The notes under the pieces are model-generated. The model searched no databases. It worked only from the letters and a program-made list of their open reading frames with translations, and was not told the origin of the DNA. A program made the translations under genes and the position numbers. DNA of 64,000 bases from contig JAUVYV010000011.1 in assembly GCA_030602885.1 (NCBI GenBank), positions 1 to 64,000 of the forward strand. The letters are read 5' to 3'. Each line of letters begins with the position of its first letter. Position 1 is the stretch's first letter. The DNA is from Phycisphaerales bacterium (lineage in GTDB: Bacteria > Planctomycetota > Phycisphaerae > Sedimentisphaerales > Anaerobacaceae). Of this stretch, positions 1 to 25,140 are shown one piece after another.

Positions 1-175
1 CACTAGCGCAGACCCCGCACTCAGCGTAGTGCGGGGGGAAAAATAAACCGTTGTGGGGTTGTCGGTTTTGGGTATAATGTCGGGGTATGAAAAAGTCGTT
101 AGCATATTTGCCGAATACGGCCAAAAACTGCACGAAGTGACTGAAAAGATTTGTAAGGAGAAGATCGAAAGCTTT
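1..175 (+). repeat. Repeat I, copy A (hairpin plus promoter-like unit)
   Basis: This stretch recurs in inverted orientation at 24966-25140 with only scattered mismatches. It opens with a perfect hairpin: a 9-bp stem at 13-21 and 28-36 (CCCCGCACT / AGTGCGGGG) with a 6-nt loop. Next comes a promoter-like pair, TTGTGG at 51-56 and TATAAT at 73-78, kept in both copies. It lies upstream of the ATPase gene at 367, as copy B lies upstream of the gene at 24392-24910. The left end may extend beyond the window. Confidence 0.85.
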
Positions 176-181
176 GTTTAG
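77..181 (+). CDS. 34-codon ORF inside repeat I, doubtful
   Basis: An ATG-initiated 34-codon frame lies inside the repeat, and the frame is also open over 34 codons in the inverted copy at 24961-25065. The two differ at about eight amino acids and a few silent sites, so strong protein-level conservation is not evident. The ATG overlaps the TATAAT-like box and has no ribosome binding site, so it is probably not translated as read. It could be the beheaded start of a formerly longer protein. Confidence 0.2.
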   Translation: MSGYEKVVSIFAEYGQKLHEVTEKICKEKIESFV

Positions 182-265
182 TACCGCGTTTCATACGGTT
201 TCCTCATCATTTAGGGGTTTTAGTCCACCACACGGGGCTTTATTACCTCAAATTGTTGCTGGAAA

Positions 266-282
266 AAGATTTGACAAATCTT
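266..282 (+). promoter_or_regulatory. Dyad overlapping a -35-like TTGACA
   Basis: A perfect 8-1-8 palindrome (AAGATTTG A CAAATCTT) contains TTGACA at 271-276. No good -10 box lies at 17 nt, so promoter function is unproven. A dyad over a -35-like element, about 85 bp before the ATPase start, would suit a repressor site controlling the pair at 367-2062. Confidence 0.35.
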
Positions 283-366
283 CTAAAATCACCCAAAATC
301 CACTTTTACTTTATACTATGCTCAGAAGAATGTTGAAGACCCCTTAATTTCAAAGGACACATTAAA

Positions 367-1443
367 ATGATAACAGATGTTCTGATTAGAAATTTTAAAT
401 GCTTCAAGAGCCTCACCGTTCCTGAACTTGGCCGCATAACACTAATTTCAGGTCGAAACAATGTAGGTAAAACCGCTCTGCTCGAAGCTCTTTTTCTTTT
501 CCTGGATCAGCGTAATCCGACTACGGTTCTAAATCAATATAGTCGGCGCGGAATTAAACAAATTACTCTAACAACTGAAGCAATATGGGACCCAATATTT
601 TGCGATTATGCTAAGGATAAGAAAATCCTTATTTCTTTAACTAAAAATGGCAACCCTGAACAAATAACAGTTCGGTTTAATCGAGAATTTGCACCTCCAC
701 CTCCAATGACGGTCCAAACTGGAGAACAGCAAATATCTACAGATGAGGAACTTACTATTGTAGCTGTGGAAATTGAATACGCCGCCAAATCAGGTGAAAA
801 AATCATTCTATCCCATTTCTGTGACCCCAATAATCGAAACCTCCCTACTGTTGTATCTAAAACAATACCTTCTAAAATTCCATTACAGTTGGCCAGTTTT
901 TTGTCAAGTAAAGAGCACAACCCACCAAATGAAATTGCAAATCAATTCGGCAAATTAGCACAACAGGATCGGGAAAACGAAGCTGTCGAATTTCTCAGGA
1001 TAATTGAGCCTCGGCTTGAAAACCTCAAAATCATCACAGAAGGCCCAAATTCACTTGTTCATGGCAAACTCAAAGGCGACATGCATACTCGTCCAATCAA
1101 TTTTATGGGTGAAGGCATGGAAAAACTTCTGGCTCTTATAGTTGCTATCACACATTCGCCTAACCGTATCATTCTTCTTGATGAAATGGAAAATGGTCTG
1201 CATTATTCTATTTTGCCAAAGATTTGGGAGGCTCTTGGCAAAGCACTGCGCAAATATGACTGCCAGCTTATCACAACAACTCATAGCTACGAATGCCTTC
1301 GAGCTGCACACGAAGGTCTTTCCGAAATGCCAGAGGACTTCAGATATATCCGCCTGCATCGGAAAGACGATGACATATCCGCCAAACTTTCAAACTATGA
1401 TATGATCGGTACTGCAATGAAAACAAATCTGGAGGTAAGATAA
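367..1443 (+). CDS. AAA/ABC-type ATPase of the OLD-like class
   Basis: A 358-residue cytoplasmic ATPase. Walker A is GRNNVGKT at residues 29-36, right after an SMC/ABC-like first strand. Walker B is ILLDE near 269-273, followed by NGLH, and a TTTHS histidine-switch motif lies near 303-307. This arrangement is typical of AAA_15/AAA_21 ATPases found in OLD nucleases and in split defence systems such as PARIS. The next gene starts 2 bp after this stop and is TOPRIM-like, so the pair probably makes a two-protein ATPase-nuclease. AAGGA precedes the ATG. The gene is AT-richer than the 4-16 kb genes, which fits transfer. A defence role is inference. Confidence 0.8.
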   Translation: MITDVLIRNFKCFKSLTVPELGRITLISGRNNVGKTALLEALFLFLDQRNPTTVLNQYSRRGIKQITLTTEAIWDPIFCDYAKDKKILISLTKNGNPEQITVRFNREFAPPPPMTVQTGEQQISTDEELTIVAVEIEYAAKSGEKIILSHFCDPNNRNLPTVVSKTIPSKIPLQLASFLSSKEHNPPNEIANQFGKLAQQDRENEAVEFLRIIEPRLENLKIITEGPNSLVHGKLKGDMHTRPINFMGEGMEKLLALIVAITHSPNRIILLDEMENGLHYSILPKIWEALGKALRKYDCQLITTTHSYECLRAAHEGLSEMPEDFRYIRLHRKDDDISAKLSNYDMIGTAMKTNLEVR

Positions 1444-1444
1444 T

Positions 1445-2062
1445 TTGTCCAAACCCGAACCGATAACCCAGAAAAAACTTCTTCTTGCAGAAGGCCGAGA
1501 CGCTGAACTATTTCTTGTATGGGCGGGAAGATACTTTTGTAGTGAGAGAGACTTTCAAGTAATGGACTTTGGAGGCATTAAGGAGTTAACTAATTTTCTC
1601 AAATTGTTAACTAACGACGAATCCTATGACAATGTTGAAACCATAGTAGTAGCTCGTGACGCTGAAACGGATGCTAAAGCTGCAACAAGCAGCATTCAAC
1701 ATTCTATGACGCAGGCAAATATGCCGGTGCCACAAAAACCTTTTGAGTACACACAAAATTCTTCTGTGAAAACCGCATTTATGATTTTTCCAGGCCCTGA
1801 ACACCGAGAGGGTCGACTAGAAGACCTCTGTCTTTTAACAGTCGAAGACGATCCTTTATTGGAATGTGTGGATGATTATTTGGAATGTGCAAAGGCCAAA
1901 AACGAACCGCTTCCGCGTATCCACAAGAGCAAGCTTCATTGTTTTTTAGCAGGGAAAAAAGATTATGCTGGCTTACCTATCGGATTAGCGTCGCGTGAAC
2001 ACGCCTGGGATTTTGACCATCCTACATTAAAACCATTTAAGAGAATTATCCAAGAAATGTAA
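1445..2062 (+). CDS. TOPRIM-like DUF3226-type protein
   Basis: A 205-residue protein starting at TTG, supported by GGAGG nine bases upstream inside the end of the ATPase gene. The N-terminus has the TOPRIM-like glutamate (E16 in LLLAEGRDAEL), and a central acidic cluster ARDAETD supplies D72, E74 and D76, as expected for a metal-binding TOPRIM fold. The overall pattern resembles DUF3226. Coupled to an OLD-like ATPase, it is most simply the nuclease half of a split system, analogous to the AriA/AriB organisation of PARIS although a different DUF. Family assignment is from memory of motifs, and the function is inferred. Confidence 0.65.
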   Translation: MSKPEPITQKKLLLAEGRDAELFLVWAGRYFCSERDFQVMDFGGIKELTNFLKLLTNDESYDNVETIVVARDAETDAKAATSSIQHSMTQANMPVPQKPFEYTQNSSVKTAFMIFPGPEHREGRLEDLCLLTVEDDPLLECVDDYLECAKAKNEPLPRIHKSKLHCFLAGKKDYAGLPIGLASREHAWDFDHPTLKPFKRIIQEM

Positions 2063-2079
2063 TATACCCACCCCCGCCC

Positions 2080-2140
2080 TTGCCGTCAAAGCAAATACCT
2101 TGAATTAATCCCGCAGATTCATATAATTGCAACACAAGAG
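2080..2140 (+). repeat. Repeat II, copy A
   Basis: About 60 bp just after the TOPRIM-like gene matches the reverse complement of 24289-24360 almost base for base, including the shared start TTGCCGTCAAA and an AATTAATCCCGCA core. In the other copy it also lies directly downstream of a cargo gene (24392-24910), so repeats I and II bracket different genes at the two sites. Confidence 0.8.
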
Positions 2141-2159
2141 ATTAGATGAGTACGCCAGT

Positions 2160-2187
2160 GGCGTATAAAACTGTATAATCGTTGTTG
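2160..2187 (+). promoter_or_regulatory. Repeated promoter-like unit upstream of the DUF6868-like gene
   Basis: A 28-bp unit beginning GGCGTATAAAA carries TATAAT at 2174-2179. It recurs with two mismatches at 2735-2762, upstream of the next small gene. A short inverted repeat (CGCCAGTGGCG) lies immediately 5'. No clear -35 box is seen. The placement before two different short genes suggests a repeat-borne promoter. Confidence 0.4.
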
Positions 2188-5572: not shown

Positions 5573-6943
5573 ATGCCATCTTCGCCGACGAAAGAACGCA
5601 TTCTTGTTGTGGACGACTCGGCAACGACACTGGAGGTTCTCCAGCGAAATCTAACGGCGGTCGGATACCGGGTCTTCACGGCACCGGGCGTGGCTGAGGC
5701 AGTTGCAATTCTCGAAGGCACGGCATTGGATCTGGTCATCACGGACCTTAAGATGCCGAAGGTCAGCGGTCTCGACTTAGTGCGGCATGTTCGGGAAAAC
5801 TTCAAAGATACCGAAGTCATGATGATAACAGGTTATCCATCGGTCGAAGGGGCCGTCAATGCGGTCAAAAGCGGTGCCGAGGAGTTTTTGGCCAAACCTT
5901 TCACCGACGAAGAGCTTCTGTCCGCAGTTCAGCGAGTGCTCGATAAACTAAAGGCTCGCAGGTCGGGACAGACCGCTGTGGACCAGGAGGTCCCTGTGCA
6001 CAAGGGTTTTATCGGGGACTCAAAAGTAATGCACAAAGTTTTCGTCGCTATAGGCAAGGCGATGTTTACTTCGGCCACTGTTCTTATTAGCGGCGAGAGC
6101 GGTACGGGAAAGGAGCTGGCGGCTCGGGCCATTCACTACGGCAGCACCCGCTCTTCGGCGCCGTTTGTACCCATAAACTGCGGCGGAATCCCCGAAGCGC
6201 TGCTTGAAAGCGAATTATTCGGGCACGTAAAGGGCGCCTTTACCGGAGCGGTCGAATCCCGGGCAGGCTTCTTTGTAGCCGGCGATGGCGGCACCATTTT
6301 TCTCGACGAAGTGAGCGATATGAGCTTAGCTATGCAGGTCAAACTTCTCCGCGTTCTGCAAGACAAAGAAGTCTGTATGGTTGGATCGAACCGGTCACGA
6401 AAAGTGGATGTAAGGATTTTGGCCGCGACCAACAGAGACCTGCATGGTTTGGTAGAGAAGCGACTTTTCCGTGAGGACCTATTCTACCGCCTCAACGTCA
6501 TTACCATATTCATACCGCCTCTCAGAGAAAGGGGTGATGATATTCTCTTACTGGCCCGTCATTTCGTAACTGAGTTCGCAGCCGAATCGGGTAAATCGCC
6601 TCTCCGTTTTTCCGACAAGGCGCTGCAGGGTCTGCGGAATTACAATTGGCCGGGCAACGTCAGAGAGCTTGAGAACGTAATTCAGCGACTGGTGGTAATG
6701 ACCGACGGGGACCTTATCGAGGTTCCCGACTTGCCGGATCTTTGCCGTTTCTCAGCCCTGCGAAGAACGGGATTTACCCGAACTCTCGCTGAAGTGGAGG
6801 CCGAATACATAAGTAATGTTCTGGCAAGCGTAGCCGGCAACAAGACCCGCGCAGCGGAAATTCTTGGTATAGACCGCAAAACCTTGCGTGAAAAGCTTAA
6901 GAAAGTCGAATCACCACGAAGGACGCGAAGTTCACGAAGTTAA
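5573..6943 (+). CDS. NtrC-family sigma54-dependent response regulator
   Basis: A 456-residue regulator with the classical three-domain order. The receiver (about 8-122) has DD near the start, phospho-acceptor Asp in ITDLKMP and Lys in KPF. The AAA+ sigma54-interaction domain (about 145-375) has Walker A GESGTGKE, the GAFTGA loop that contacts sigma54, and an arginine-rich sensor region. The C-terminal Fis-type helix-turn-helix contains NKTRAAEILGIDRKTLREKL. The last ten residues (SPRRTRSSRS) and the stop codon come from a 100-bp MITE-like repeat at 6913-7012, so the native C-terminus was replaced. A sigma54-like promoter at 9155-9170 is a plausible target. Confidence 0.92.
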   Translation: MPSSPTKERILVVDDSATTLEVLQRNLTAVGYRVFTAPGVAEAVAILEGTALDLVITDLKMPKVSGLDLVRHVRENFKDTEVMMITGYPSVEGAVNAVKSGAEEFLAKPFTDEELLSAVQRVLDKLKARRSGQTAVDQEVPVHKGFIGDSKVMHKVFVAIGKAMFTSATVLISGESGTGKELAARAIHYGSTRSSAPFVPINCGGIPEALLESELFGHVKGAFTGAVESRAGFFVAGDGGTIFLDEVSDMSLAMQVKLLRVLQDKEVCMVGSNRSRKVDVRILAATNRDLHGLVEKRLFREDLFYRLNVITIFIPPLRERGDDILLLARHFVTEFAAESGKSPLRFSDKALQGLRNYNWPGNVRELENVIQRLVVMTDGDLIEVPDLPDLCRFSALRRTGFTRTLAEVEAEYISNVLASVAGNKTRAAEILGIDRKTLREKLKKVESPRRTRSSRS

Positions 6944-7012
6944 AATTAAAGAACAAAATATCTTTTCGTGTTCTTCTCTACAGGATGCCTTACGGCAGTG
7001 CACTTCGTGGTT
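6913..7012 (+). repeat. 100-bp MITE-like element, copy 1
   Basis: Exactly 100 bp, about 90 percent identical by eye to 8748-8847 in the same orientation. Ends form a terminal inverted repeat (ACCACGAAG ... CTTCGTGGT), with further inner palindromes. It overlaps the 3' end of the response-regulator gene and supplies its final codons and TAA. Confidence 0.85.
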
Positions 7013-7133
7013 GACAATATTATCCATTATCGTAATGTGTTTTAATTCACCGCCGATGGCAGAACATAATTGCTGATTTTAACCTGCAATTATCGGATGT
7101 AAAGGGCTAATTGGTCAAGAAAGATTTACGAAG

Positions 7134-7343
7134 CGATTCAACGGGGGAAATGTGCTGGTTTACAAAACAGTATTAAAACTGACACCTTTAGTGGAAACTC
7201 TGGAGAGAATCCGAACCGGTTCAACGGGGAAATGTACCGGACACCTTTAATTTCCCGGTTCAACGGGGAAATGTACCGGACACCTTTAATTTCCGGACAC
7301 CTTTAATTTCCCAAGAGCTAAAAATATACCGCACACCTTTAAT
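7134..7343 (+). repeat. Tandem REP-like array
   Basis: Two near-perfect units at about 7218-7255 and 7257-7294 (GGTTCAACGGGGAAATGTAC followed by CGGACACCTTTAATTTCC), a degenerate unit at 7134-7193, and shorter remnants up to 7343. The recurring half CGGACACCTTTAATTTCC resembles tails left by REP-associated (RAYT) elements. The rest of 6944-7338 holds no supported gene. Confidence 0.7.
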
Positions 7344-8487
7344 TCACACCTTGGAGCAGTCGTGTCAAGCTGTCAGCCGCCAACGAATATACCTCTTGTC
7401 GCGAAACCGATGTTGTCGTGCACCCTGTTAATAGCTTGCCTGAAAAGACTAACTCTTGCTCGGGCCAACGATATACAAGAACGGGAGCCACAAGCTCCTT
7501 ATCCCCCAATAATCTGGCTCCAAAGGCGGAGGTAGCGTACGGAGAAGGAGTAATCTCGAATATCATTTCACCCAATACAACTACTACTTGCACCGAAGAG
7601 AGCTGATTAGCTGACAAACCTTCGGGGATGAAAATACTAATCTCGCTGACAGCCAAACGACGCGTTGCCGCATCAAGCACCAAGACGCTATGGTTCAGAT
7701 TGGGCATGATCCCAACAGCGTGATCTTCCGTCATTGCTGCCTCAAAGTCTTCGTGGGTGAACAGACTTGATGCCTCGGCAATCACCTGCGCAAAAGTCTC
7801 TGTTCGCTGGTGGATAAAGGCAAGGTCACGAGCCCTCATCATTGCGGGTATCCATATGGGTGCGAAAACCAAGCCAGGAGCCAGCCCCGCAATGATGCAA
7901 TTTTTCCATCGAAATTCCTTGCACTTGAAAATAACATACAAGCTCCCTACGACAGCCACGAGCGAGCCAATACCCCATACGAACTCAGGAAAACCTAGTG
8001 GACCAGCCACAAGAGCAACAGCGGTTGCGATGATTACAGCGATGAGTTCGCCAGTGAATGTTTTCGCTTCCTGACGCCCGGTCTTGCGGCTGGCCATTTT
8101 AGATAACAGGGCGCCACCAATCAAGAAGACCGCTGAGGTCATGATCATCGCAAAAAACATGCCACTTAGGGGTTGATTGCTTAGACGCTGGGGCCGTAAG
8201 TAGGATCCGATAGCAATGCATACTACGCAAATCATCATCAACCCGCCAAACAAAGACAGCACTATGAAACCAATGCGAAGCAACCGCCAGAGCAGTGGAG
8301 CCTTGGGTTTTATGGCTGTTGATGTTTTTTCTACCTGCTGCGGCAGATTCTCGCCCCGCTCAAGAAGAATCAGTTTCACGGCTTCAAAGGCATCATTAGA
8401 CAATTCCTCTCGGTCGTTCTTTATCCAGATGGATAGAAGTTCATCGGTGGTTTTCTGTTCCATGTGTTTCTTAATTTCTGCGATCAT
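7339..8487 (-). CDS. Polytopic membrane protein with an extracytoplasmic or soluble C-terminal domain
   Basis: About 382 residues. The N-terminal 40 residues (TTDELLSIWIKNDREELS, then ILLERGENLP) match a short helical motif that recurs at the front of many uncharacterised bacterial membrane proteins. Five or so hydrophobic segments follow (about residues 65-90, 108-130, 145-165, 172-190, 200-220), then a soluble domain of about 160 residues. The ATG at 8487 was preferred over a TTG at 8529; neither has a strong ribosome binding site, so the start is uncertain. It lies alone between two repeat clusters, with its 3' end touching the tandem array. Function unknown. Confidence 0.6.
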   Translation of the reverse strand: MIAEIKKHMEQKTTDELLSIWIKNDREELSNDAFEAVKLILLERGENLPQQVEKTSTAIKPKAPLLWRLLRIGFIVLSLFGGLMMICVVCIAIGSYLRPQRLSNQPLSGMFFAMIMTSAVFLIGGALLSKMASRKTGRQEAKTFTGELIAVIIATAVALVAGPLGFPEFVWGIGSLVAVVGSLYVIFKCKEFRWKNCIIAGLAPGLVFAPIWIPAMMRARDLAFIHQRTETFAQVIAEASSLFTHEDFEAAMTEDHAVGIMPNLNHSVLVLDAATRRLAVSEISIFIPEGLSANQLSSVQVVVVLGEMIFEITPSPYATSAFGARLLGDKELVAPVLVYRWPEQELVFSGKLLTGCTTTSVSRQEVYSLAADSLTRLLQGVN

Positions 8488-24189: not shown

Positions 24190-24360
24190 AACAAGTTCCC
24201 GCTCGTCAGGGCGGAGCCTGCCGTAGCACGGTTGGTTCTTCAATATTTATCCGCCTTTTACCCGCCCTTTGTTTGGCGGGATGACGGACTCATCCAATCT
24301 TCTGTGTTGTAATTATATGAATATGCGGGATTAATTCAAGGTATTTCTTTTGACGGCAAG
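24190..24360 (-). repeat. Repeats III and II, copy B, inverted relative to 2.1-2.6 kb
   Basis: 24190-24285 matches repeat III (2518-2640) and 24289-24360 matches repeat II (2080-2140), both as reverse complements. Here the two are adjacent, whereas in copy A the DUF6868-like gene and its promoter unit lie between them. Confidence 0.8.
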
Positions 24361-24391
24361 TGCAGGGTAATGCGTATGCTTCACCCGATAG

Positions 24392-24910
24392 TCAGAGTTC
24401 TTTTTTGTCTCTCATATCTACAAGCTTTCGCCAGTCTATGCAGGATGCTAGAGTTCGAAAACACTCCAGATCCATGACTCGCCCTTTTCTGCGCCATTTG
24501 TTTTGGAACCGCTCAAATTCCTGTTCTATCTTTGCAAAAATTTGTTCCGAAGATTCATCGGGGAAGAAATGAATCTCAAAAGCTTTTCCAAGATACTTGA
24601 TCTGATTACGGGATTTTCGGTGGAAACGTTTTCCAGCCATCCACCACAGATCTCCACGGATCTGTGATCCGAGGATGTACAACCGCATCCATCCAATAAC
24701 TTGGTTGTAGTGCCAAGGGCCACCATAGGTTTCCCAGAAATGCTGTTTCGTGTTCAGACGAGTGGTCTCGGGAACCTTATCGCGTACGAACCCACTCAAT
24801 TTCTCGAATCGCTCCCAATGGTGCTGCAGAGCACTATCATACTTTTGGTTGAATCGCTCATGACTGATGCGGTAAATTGGTATCTCAAAAAAAAATCGGT
24901 TGAGGAGCAA
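24392..24910 (-). CDS. Unknown 172-residue protein in the inverted repeat frame
   Basis: A soluble, aromatic- and basic-rich protein (RISHERFNQKYDSALQHHWE near the start, GGPWHYNQVIGWMRLYI in the middle). No family recognised. The start is TTG with a perfect AGGAGG eight bases upstream, a strong sign it is translated. It occupies the site between repeats I and II that in the other copy holds the ATPase/TOPRIM pair, so it may be an alternative accessory or defence cargo; that is inference from position only. Confidence 0.65.
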   Translation of the reverse strand: MLLNRFFFEIPIYRISHERFNQKYDSALQHHWERFEKLSGFVRDKVPETTRLNTKQHFWETYGGPWHYNQVIGWMRLYILGSQIRGDLWWMAGKRFHRKSRNQIKYLGKAFEIHFFPDESSEQIFAKIEQEFERFQNKWRRKGRVMDLECFRTLASCIDWRKLVDMRDKKEL

Positions 24911-24965
24911 TTCTGTTACCTCCTATAATTTTGGATTGTCCAATATGATAATATACAACATTATG

Positions 24966-25140
24966 TAAAGCTTTTGATTTTCTCCTTACAAATCCTTTCT
25001 GTTATTTCGTGTAGTTTTTGGCCGTATCCGGCAGATGTGCTAACGACTTTTTCATATCCCGCCATTATACCCAAAACCGACGAGCCCACAACAGTTTATT
25101 TTCCCCCCGCACTACGCTGAGTGCGGGGTCTGCGCTAGTG
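24966..25140 (-). repeat. Repeat I, copy B (inverted)
   Basis: The reverse complement of 1-175 with roughly 25 differences, keeping the 9-bp hairpin, the TTGTGG/TATAAT pair and an open 34-codon frame (24961-25065). It lies upstream of the gene at 24392-24910. Confidence 0.85.

Follow-up and report, generated by a model that had tools for sequence, protein, structure and literature searches.

We analyzed a stretch of 64,000 nucleotides from a Phycisphaerales bacterium (assembly GCA_030602885.1, contig JAUVYV010000011.1; hereafter the window), near the left end of which an earlier reading made from the letters alone (the sequence-only reading) had placed a possible anti-phage unit of an ATPase and a TOPRIM-like protein. 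The two open reading frames (ORFs) are present in the order described, encoding an OLD/AbiLi-type ABC ATPase and an effector of the DUF3226 family, and are separated by 1 bp rather than the 2 bp given there. The pair is AT-rich, as claimed (GC 0.41, compared with 0.515 for the window), and repeats lie on both flanks, with 15 matches in the same genome for the left one and 16 for the right one, each count including the repeat itself. The window starts at the first base of its contig (G000:C55; 87,356 bp, in a genome of 3.2 Mb), so that sequence upstream of base 1 is not visible.

The effector matches DUF3226 (PF11536) at an E-value of 1.7e-20 and 74.2 bits, against a gathering score of 27, over profile positions 2-205 of 208. 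Its structure, predicted from 31 sequences with a mean predicted local distance difference test score (pLDDT) of 95.0 and a predicted template modeling score (pTM) of 0.90, is closest to an archaeal hypothetical protein (PDB 2p62; Z 12.5, root-mean-square deviation (rmsd) 3.5, 190 residues aligned). OLD TOPRIM domains are among the best fold matches (6nk8, Z 9.9, rmsd 4.5, 162 residues aligned; 6njv, Z 9.2), and Retron Eco2 (Z 6.9) and AriB (8ux9, Z 6.4) also score. A profile search retrieves 2p62 at 1.8e-4 and AriB chains at 0.13 only, and Pfam and PADLOC scans returned no RloB or AbiLii match, and no PADLOC match to AriB, up to an E-value of 1. The lack of a TOPRIM fold in the second protein, which the sequence-only reading had named as its refutation, was thus not seen.

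The active site of BpOLD is described as comprising E400, E404, D455, D457, T506, E508 and K562 (PMC6755086). By order and context, DUF3226 carries what looks like the same OLD-like catalytic set, namely E16, D72, D/E at position 74, E126 and K161, a correspondence drawn from sequence with no measured superposition. The proposed cluster of E16 with D72, E74 and D76 therefore stands in its first three members, while D76 falls outside it, position 76 being D in just 14 of 31 homologues. In the model, the effector shows the fold, the glutamate and the DxD motif expected of a TOPRIM nuclease.

The ATPase matches AAA_15 (4.5e-25) and AAA_21 (3.1e-19) in Pfam and, in PADLOC, one AbiLi model (1e-55), PDC-M38A (2.8e-52, profile positions 1-383 of 383) and AriA (5.5e-26). 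Its predicted structure (pLDDT 88.5) matches the heads of SMC, Rad50, GajA and PtuA at Z about 18-20. G248, D272, Q300 and H306 are invariant in 33/33 homologues, and the Walker A lysine K35 is present in 32, with one gap. All 33 also end in [ED]-x-R with the arginine last or penultimate, and the six plasmid ATPases inspected (two being the same protein and one split) likewise end in EVR; the tail is missing from an AbiL-type ATPase encoded on contig C125 of the source genome and from an AriA-like ATPase. The GAG-GT of the tail codons overlaps a Shine-Dalgarno-like site, yet a ribosome-binding site is unlikely to be its only role: the invariant arginine is written with several codons, which makes a role in the protein likely too.

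The middle of the ATPase varies most, as a sensor would. Over ten copies, mean pairwise identity is 0.36-0.60 in residues 41-200 and 0.65-0.94 in the remainder, with 0.89 over the last 18 residues, and the mean ratio of nonsynonymous to synonymous differences (pN/pS) is 0.54 in the middle, compared with 0.10 and 0.23 in the parts flanking it and 0.32 for the effector. Exact codon counts between the window and the close copy L080 give 24 nonsynonymous and 6 synonymous differences in residues 41-200 against 12 and 32 elsewhere (Fisher p 1.3e-5). Synonymous divergence is also reduced in this middle part, as after recombination, so that diversifying selection is hinted at rather than proven.

The two genes are steadily paired. 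Among 392 genomes sampled across the phylum, DUF3226 was found in 25, with 28 matches over a cut-off of 1e-3, the window's own included. One of the other 27 (L051) lies at a contig end; in all of the remaining 26 this ATPase lies directly upstream, as it does in 6/6 close copies. Two matches below the cut-off were rejected as DUF3226 pairs, one being an Old-like single protein (L064) and the other an AriA/AriB-like pair (L065). The latter, at 5926-8012 of a locus from a genome of the same order, is of PARIS type. Broken frames also occur, in the effector of close copy L006 (1176-1793) and in the ATPase of an Acinetobacter plasmid copy (L107, 2014-3175). ATPase-DUF3226 pairs are already present in PADLOC as candidate PDC-M38, where PDC denotes the database's class of "phage defense candidates" (PMC11514479). 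Three plasmid-borne DUF3226 partners match PDC-M38B at 8.4e-89, 1.3e-52 and 3.9e-11, indicating that DUF3226 serves as the B protein there and that the window pair belongs to this candidate as a distant relative. No paper mentioning DUF3226 or PDC-M38 was found in the literature searched, which excluded most subscription papers and preprints.

The earlier suggestion of a split OLD or PARIS-type logic with a DUF3226 effector is backed by the family matches, the predicted fold, the catalytic residues, the steady pairing and the mobility described below. We consider the pair to be, with somewhat better than even chances, a two-protein split-OLD defense module of the abortive-infection or toxin-antitoxin type, in which the ATPase would act as sensor and inhibitor and the TOPRIM protein would be the toxic nuclease. 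Also in its favor are the conflicting trees of the two genes, the variable ATPase middle, the similar pairs on small plasmids and the occurrence of the leader repeat before an AbiL pair and further genes of defense type, all described in this text. Precedents exist: ATPase-TOPRIM combinations are reported in several defense systems (PMC10568477; PMC12839542), the split TOPRIM partner AriB of PARIS is described as cutting tRNA (PMC12409363), and AAA proteins are reported to neutralize TOPRIM_OLD toxins in E. coli (PMC10440598). By this scheme, the TOPRIM nuclease would be restrained by an ATPase multimer, in which the C-terminal [ED]-x-R tail may do the inhibiting; a phage or plasmid cue would be sensed by residues 41-200, and activation would release or license a TOPRIM dimer to cut nucleic acid. 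By analogy with AriB, the likeliest substrate would be tRNA, and the infected cell would be halted. The probable promoter is the cassette's own TTGACA-N17-CAAAAT; in the source genome, the leader repeat on the left flank may drive transcription as well.

The effector might instead be a DNA-targeting nuclease and no tRNase, Old/Gabija-like or anti-plasmid, with the ATPase licensing DNA nicking or degradation. Among solved TOPRIM nuclease domains, those of Class 2 OLD DNA nucleases score best in our comparison, their residue set agrees, and the ATPase head resembles those of GajA, PtuA and Rad50. The tRNA cleavage reported for AriB (PMC12409363) and the loss of the E404 counterpart in the window's clade argue the other way, and we regard this version as possible but on balance unlikely.

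Related pairs are carried by plasmids. The effector encoded in the window, like its DNA, gave no plasmid match, and the window's ATPase finds plasmid relatives at below 60% identity. The DUF3226 protein of another planctomycete (L052) as query returned 141 plasmid records, of which 135 were from Klebsiella, and 44 of the 60 matches listed were plasmids of 4.1-4.2 kb; another query returned seven records (five Acinetobacter, one Plesiomonas, one Klebsiella). On three plasmids of 3.8-4.7 kb, L102 and L103 from Klebsiella and L104 from E. coli, most of the annotated coding sequence belongs to the pair; the other annotated genes encode Rop and a helix-turn-helix protein, with one further small protein on two of the plasmids. 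PLSDB, the source of this gene content, describes its own annotation as incomplete. In a survey of plasmids from Klebsiella published in 2026, small relaxase-less ColRNAI plasmids are described as prominent and small plasmids are termed cryptic, and its text does not contain DUF3226 (PMC12919850).

Such plasmids invite a rival account, in which the pair is a selfish addiction module: the ATPase neutralizes the TOPRIM toxin, the death of cells that have lost the pair maintains it, and phages are not sensed. Besides the dominance of similar pairs among the annotated genes of these three roughly 4-kb plasmids, two of them typed ColRNAI, the position of pairs on two Acinetobacter plasmids, beside RelE/ParE or BrnT/BrnA genes, fits this account, as does the existence of AAA-neutralized TOPRIM toxins (PMC10440598). 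The chromosomal, promoter-linked cassettes of Planctomycetota, with their fast-varying ATPase middle, suggest instead that something variable is sensed, and we think pure addiction rather improbable.

Returning to the defense module, the pair moves as a cassette of about 1.8 kb that brings its own promoter. Homology to the window begins at 256-257 in close copies L002, L003 and L007, at 158 in L004 and at 271 in L006, where that copy's own contig ends, and it stops at 2062-2064 in close copies and at 2093 in L004; L005 aligns in two blocks (335-506 and 965-2064). The flanks are not common to the close copies, and two short L003 matches fall elsewhere in the window. Further copies, in G545, G505 and G480, came from a class-wide search. 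L005, which is 73% identical and labeled "Actinomycetes", was set aside as a case of transfer across phyla, since it appears to be the same as G395, which belongs to the class of the source genome, and its label is probably wrong.

The promoter contains the perfect dyad overlapping TTGACA that the sequence-only reading had described, AAGATTTGACAAATCTT, one of two perfect 8-1-8 dyads in the 64 kb, whose 13-bp core occurs at a single place in the genome. Tight repression through this dyad, which had been proposed from it, fares less well. Five of ten copies keep the dyad intact, a sixth keeps only the core, a seventh is cut by a contig end, two are broken and L005 has lost the region; TTGACA is kept in 9/10, with the dyad broken in two of those nine. 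We keep repression as a possibility only, since in diverged copies TTGACA persists where the dyad does not, and the core has a single site in the genome.

Table. Features of the ATPase-DUF3226 locus and related elements, in window coordinates.
Feature	Position	Strand	Basis or remarks
Left-flank leader repeat: hairpin (13-36), TATAAT-like box, 34-codon ORF; ends at ORF stop	1-183	+	Own-genome matches
34-codon small ORF, MSGYEKVVSIFAEYGQKLHEVTEKICKEKIESFV	77-181	+	Frame conservation
Conserved, mobile cassette: own promoter leader and both genes	256-2064	+	blastn blocks in close copies
Perfect 17-bp dyad, AAGATTTGACAAATCTT	266-282	.	Intact in window, L003, L004, L007, L080; broken in L081, L082
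-35-like TTGACA	271-276	+	In 9/10 close copies
-10-like CAAAAT, 17 bp from TTGACA	294-299	+	CAGAAT, CACAAT or CAAGAT in relatives (by eye)
OLD/AbiLi-type ABC ATPase	367-1443	+	358 aa; Pfam, PADLOC and predicted-structure matches
Hypervariable ATPase middle, residues 41-200, candidate sensor	487-966	+	Identity, codon differences
GGAGGT Shine-Dalgarno-like site over codons of ATPase tail E-V-R	1431-1440	+	Sequence
DUF3226 TOPRIM-like effector	1445-2062	+	205 aa, TTG start; Pfam, model and fold match
Putative catalytic Glu E16	1490-1492	+	31/31 aligned homologues
DxD/E motif D72-A-E74	1658-1666	+	D72 31/31; D/E at 74 in 28/31
E126, counterpart of BpOLD E508 by order/context	1820-1822	+	31/31
K161, counterpart of BpOLD K562 by order/context	1925-1927	+	K 29, R 2 of 31
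Right-flank repeat	2065-2169	+	86% copy at C33; 87% partial copy at window 24282-24367
172-aa gene behind second leader copy	24392-24910	-	No Pfam or PADLOC match
Second leader-repeat copy (small ORF 25065-24961)	24961-25140	-	91% identity

The identity of the ATPase does not track that of RecA in the same genomes. Given as percent identity of ATPase and RecA to those of the window, it lies above RecA in G545 (90/85) and G750 (86/82) and below it in G751 (79/84), G643 (73/81), G505 (67/77), G748 (62/83), G395 (60/69) and G480 (58/85); RecA was not found in G749, which leaves no comparison there. The two genes also differ in their identity to the same copies: against L080, the window ATPase is 90% identical and the effector 63%, and against L002 the values are 62% and 84%. 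The breakpoint in identity is sharp, lying at the gene boundary for L080 and within the 3' part of the ATPase for L002. Tree comparisons of the first 800 columns of the ATPase alignment with the effector (nine rows, L006 being dropped for its broken frame; groups chosen after the identities had been seen) were in conflict in all four approximately unbiased (AU) tests (p-AU 4e-5 to 2.2e-4, log-likelihood differences 140-232). These comparisons indicate that ATPase and effector modules are exchanged between cassettes.

We also considered the neighborhoods of homologues. Of 173 ORFs flanking 35 loci, 119 were scanned, these being the nearest up to two per side with three very long ones omitted. 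Just two of the 119 match PADLOC at 1e-15, so that enrichment in defense islands is not borne out and a defense-island reading was rejected. Among the Pfam families listed (25 of 39 and 25 of 80), those of the flanks are mostly housekeeping. A consistently housekeeping context had been named as a second refutation: the neighbors are indeed mostly of that kind, and consistency is lacking, as the context changes from genome to genome, leaving no single conserved locus. A housekeeping enzyme of chromosome processing would be one way to read such neighbors, and Cran1, an archaeal OLD ATPase with a reported cell-cycle role, warns that an OLD ATPase need not serve in defense (PMC12796447). The restriction of the pair to 25/392 genomes of the phylum without a common locus, its identity off RecA, its recombining modules and its plasmid relatives make this reading very improbable.

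Several results weigh against a defense module, and its defense role remains a matter of inference. To the sparse PADLOC matches in the flanks can be added that no match was found in phage records or viral contigs, and that another AAA-neutralized pair, with a different toxin, is reported to have given no hit in a coliphage screen (PMC10440598). The effector is barely seen by the PDC-M38B models, with a weak match of 0.0027 over 74 residues as its only one in PADLOC. As to its fold, unrelated Rossmann-like succinyl-CoA synthetases score Z 9.2, over 113 residues only, and Foldseek alone gave no match to the model with an E-value below 1e-3. Position 20, the counterpart of the metal B ligand E404 of BpOLD, is D/E in 23/31 homologues and alanine in the window's clade (A in 7/31). 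Finally, both the trigger and the substrate proposed above come from analogy alone.

The left-flank leader repeat forms a second subject. Its 15 own-genome matches fall at 13 places, and it occurs in 11/60 genomes of the family and 12/397 of the class, the source genome included in each. Conservation, computed from 26 rows of nine genomes with one row duplicating another, is 0.67-0.79 over bases 41-180 and 0.31 over 181-200, a step that coincides with the stop codon of the 34-codon ORF. The frame of this ORF has a pN/pS of 0.32, versus 0.85 and 0.74 in the other two frames (seven full-frame copies, 21 pairs). Among 14 copies, the full frame is kept in these seven, two of which start with ATA; of the remainder, one has a shorter frame, another a broken one, and five escaped the search pattern. 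A broken nucleotidyltransferase was rejected as the origin of the repeat, the conserved frame being a different one.

Nine places bear the leader, leaving out four that retain only the hairpin (C103, C96, C84 and C60:54k). The first genes behind these nine include the window pair, a pair of AbiLi (4e-99) and RloB/AbiLii (5.8e-26), PDC-M30A (1.9e-126) and PDC-S31/DUF2971 (1.5e-16), as well as two genes without a PADLOC match that carry HEPN_RiboL-PSP (2e-21) and Mrr_cat (2.4e-6) domains; three had no match in the Pfam and PADLOC scans. At the hairpin-only places, the one ORF scanned of the two at C96 gave no match, and C103 has no ORF of 90 amino acids on the repeat strand within 2.6 kb. In relatives, some genes behind the leader look, by eye, DUF2971-, FRG- and SIR2-like; others could not be placed. 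The AbiL-type pair lies at a contig start (L124 417-2355, on C125) behind a 98% copy of the leader, so that one genome holds two ATPase-TOPRIM systems behind one leader. The 172-residue protein encoded within the window lies between copies of both flank repeats.

PADLOC matches at 1e-15 occur behind the leader at 4/9 places, compared with 2/119 neighbors in other genomes (p 1.7e-4; without the window pair 3/8, p 0.0016), and an earlier calculation over all 13 places gave 4/13 (p 7.9e-4; without the window pair 3/12, p 0.005). The test was made after the genes had been seen, and the scan leaves out two hairpin-only places and the second genes at C19 and C33. In an own-genome control of 48 window ORFs, PADLOC matches occur too, including those to generic protein-kinase and sigma-54-activator models. 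With an assumed 2 to 5 matches among these 48 (25 of 35 families being listed and distinct proteins not resolved), the enrichment has p 0.004-0.027, or 0.017-0.078 without the window pair.

The end of conservation at the ORF stop, together with a different gene after each copy, suggests that in this planctomycete family the leader repeat and its 34-codon ORF mark dispersed landing sites for single defense cassettes, scattered instead of gathered in islands, a reading we put forward tentatively and at somewhat less than even odds. The leader peptide or transcript could also control, or be required for, the downstream gene. Among cassette copies whose flanks were compared, a trace of the leader outside the window's own copy is seen in L004 only (26 bp), making the ATPase-DUF3226 pair independent of the repeat. 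Between the two, we see the greater novelty in the repeat.

The next genes downstream of the pair are a DUF6868 gene, one without assignment, a DUF7670 gene, a histidine kinase and a response regulator. A 28-nt direct repeat (93%; 2160-2187 and 2735-2762) precedes two small genes after the pair.

DUF3226 with its ATPase occurs across Planctomycetota, small enterobacterial plasmids and Acinetobacter, and no paper naming DUF3226 was found in the literature searched. If the pair is a defense system, it would explain what the chief annotated cargo of the widespread Klebsiella plasmids of about 4 kb does and would add a class of TOPRIM effector; if the leader truly marks defense cassettes, it would provide a nucleotide signature for finding unrecognized defense genes outside islands.

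The pair is reminiscent of several known systems. One is PDC-M38 (A, ATPase; B, DUF3226-type), whose ATPase model is matched over its full length, although the window effector is a distant B. AbiL (AbiLi with AbiLii/RloB) likewise joins an ATPase to a TOPRIM-type effector in two genes, but the window has DUF3226 in place of RloB, and the AbiL-type ATPase on C125 lacks the [ED]-x-R tail. PARIS (AriA with AriB) shares the split between an ABC ATPase and a TOPRIM nuclease, with the AriA model and AriB fold matches given above, whereas the window effector is shorter and matches no AriB model; this likeness is known from sequence and models, not from an Ocr-like trigger. PH0156 of Pyrococcus horikoshii (2p62), the best structural match to the effector, is deposited as a hypothetical protein. 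Class 2 OLD proteins and GajA share the ATPase head fold and the TOPRIM catalytic set, but in one chain, whereas the window system consists of two polypeptides, with no UvrD-like or GajB-like helicase among the next genes downstream, the upstream side being cut by the contig end.

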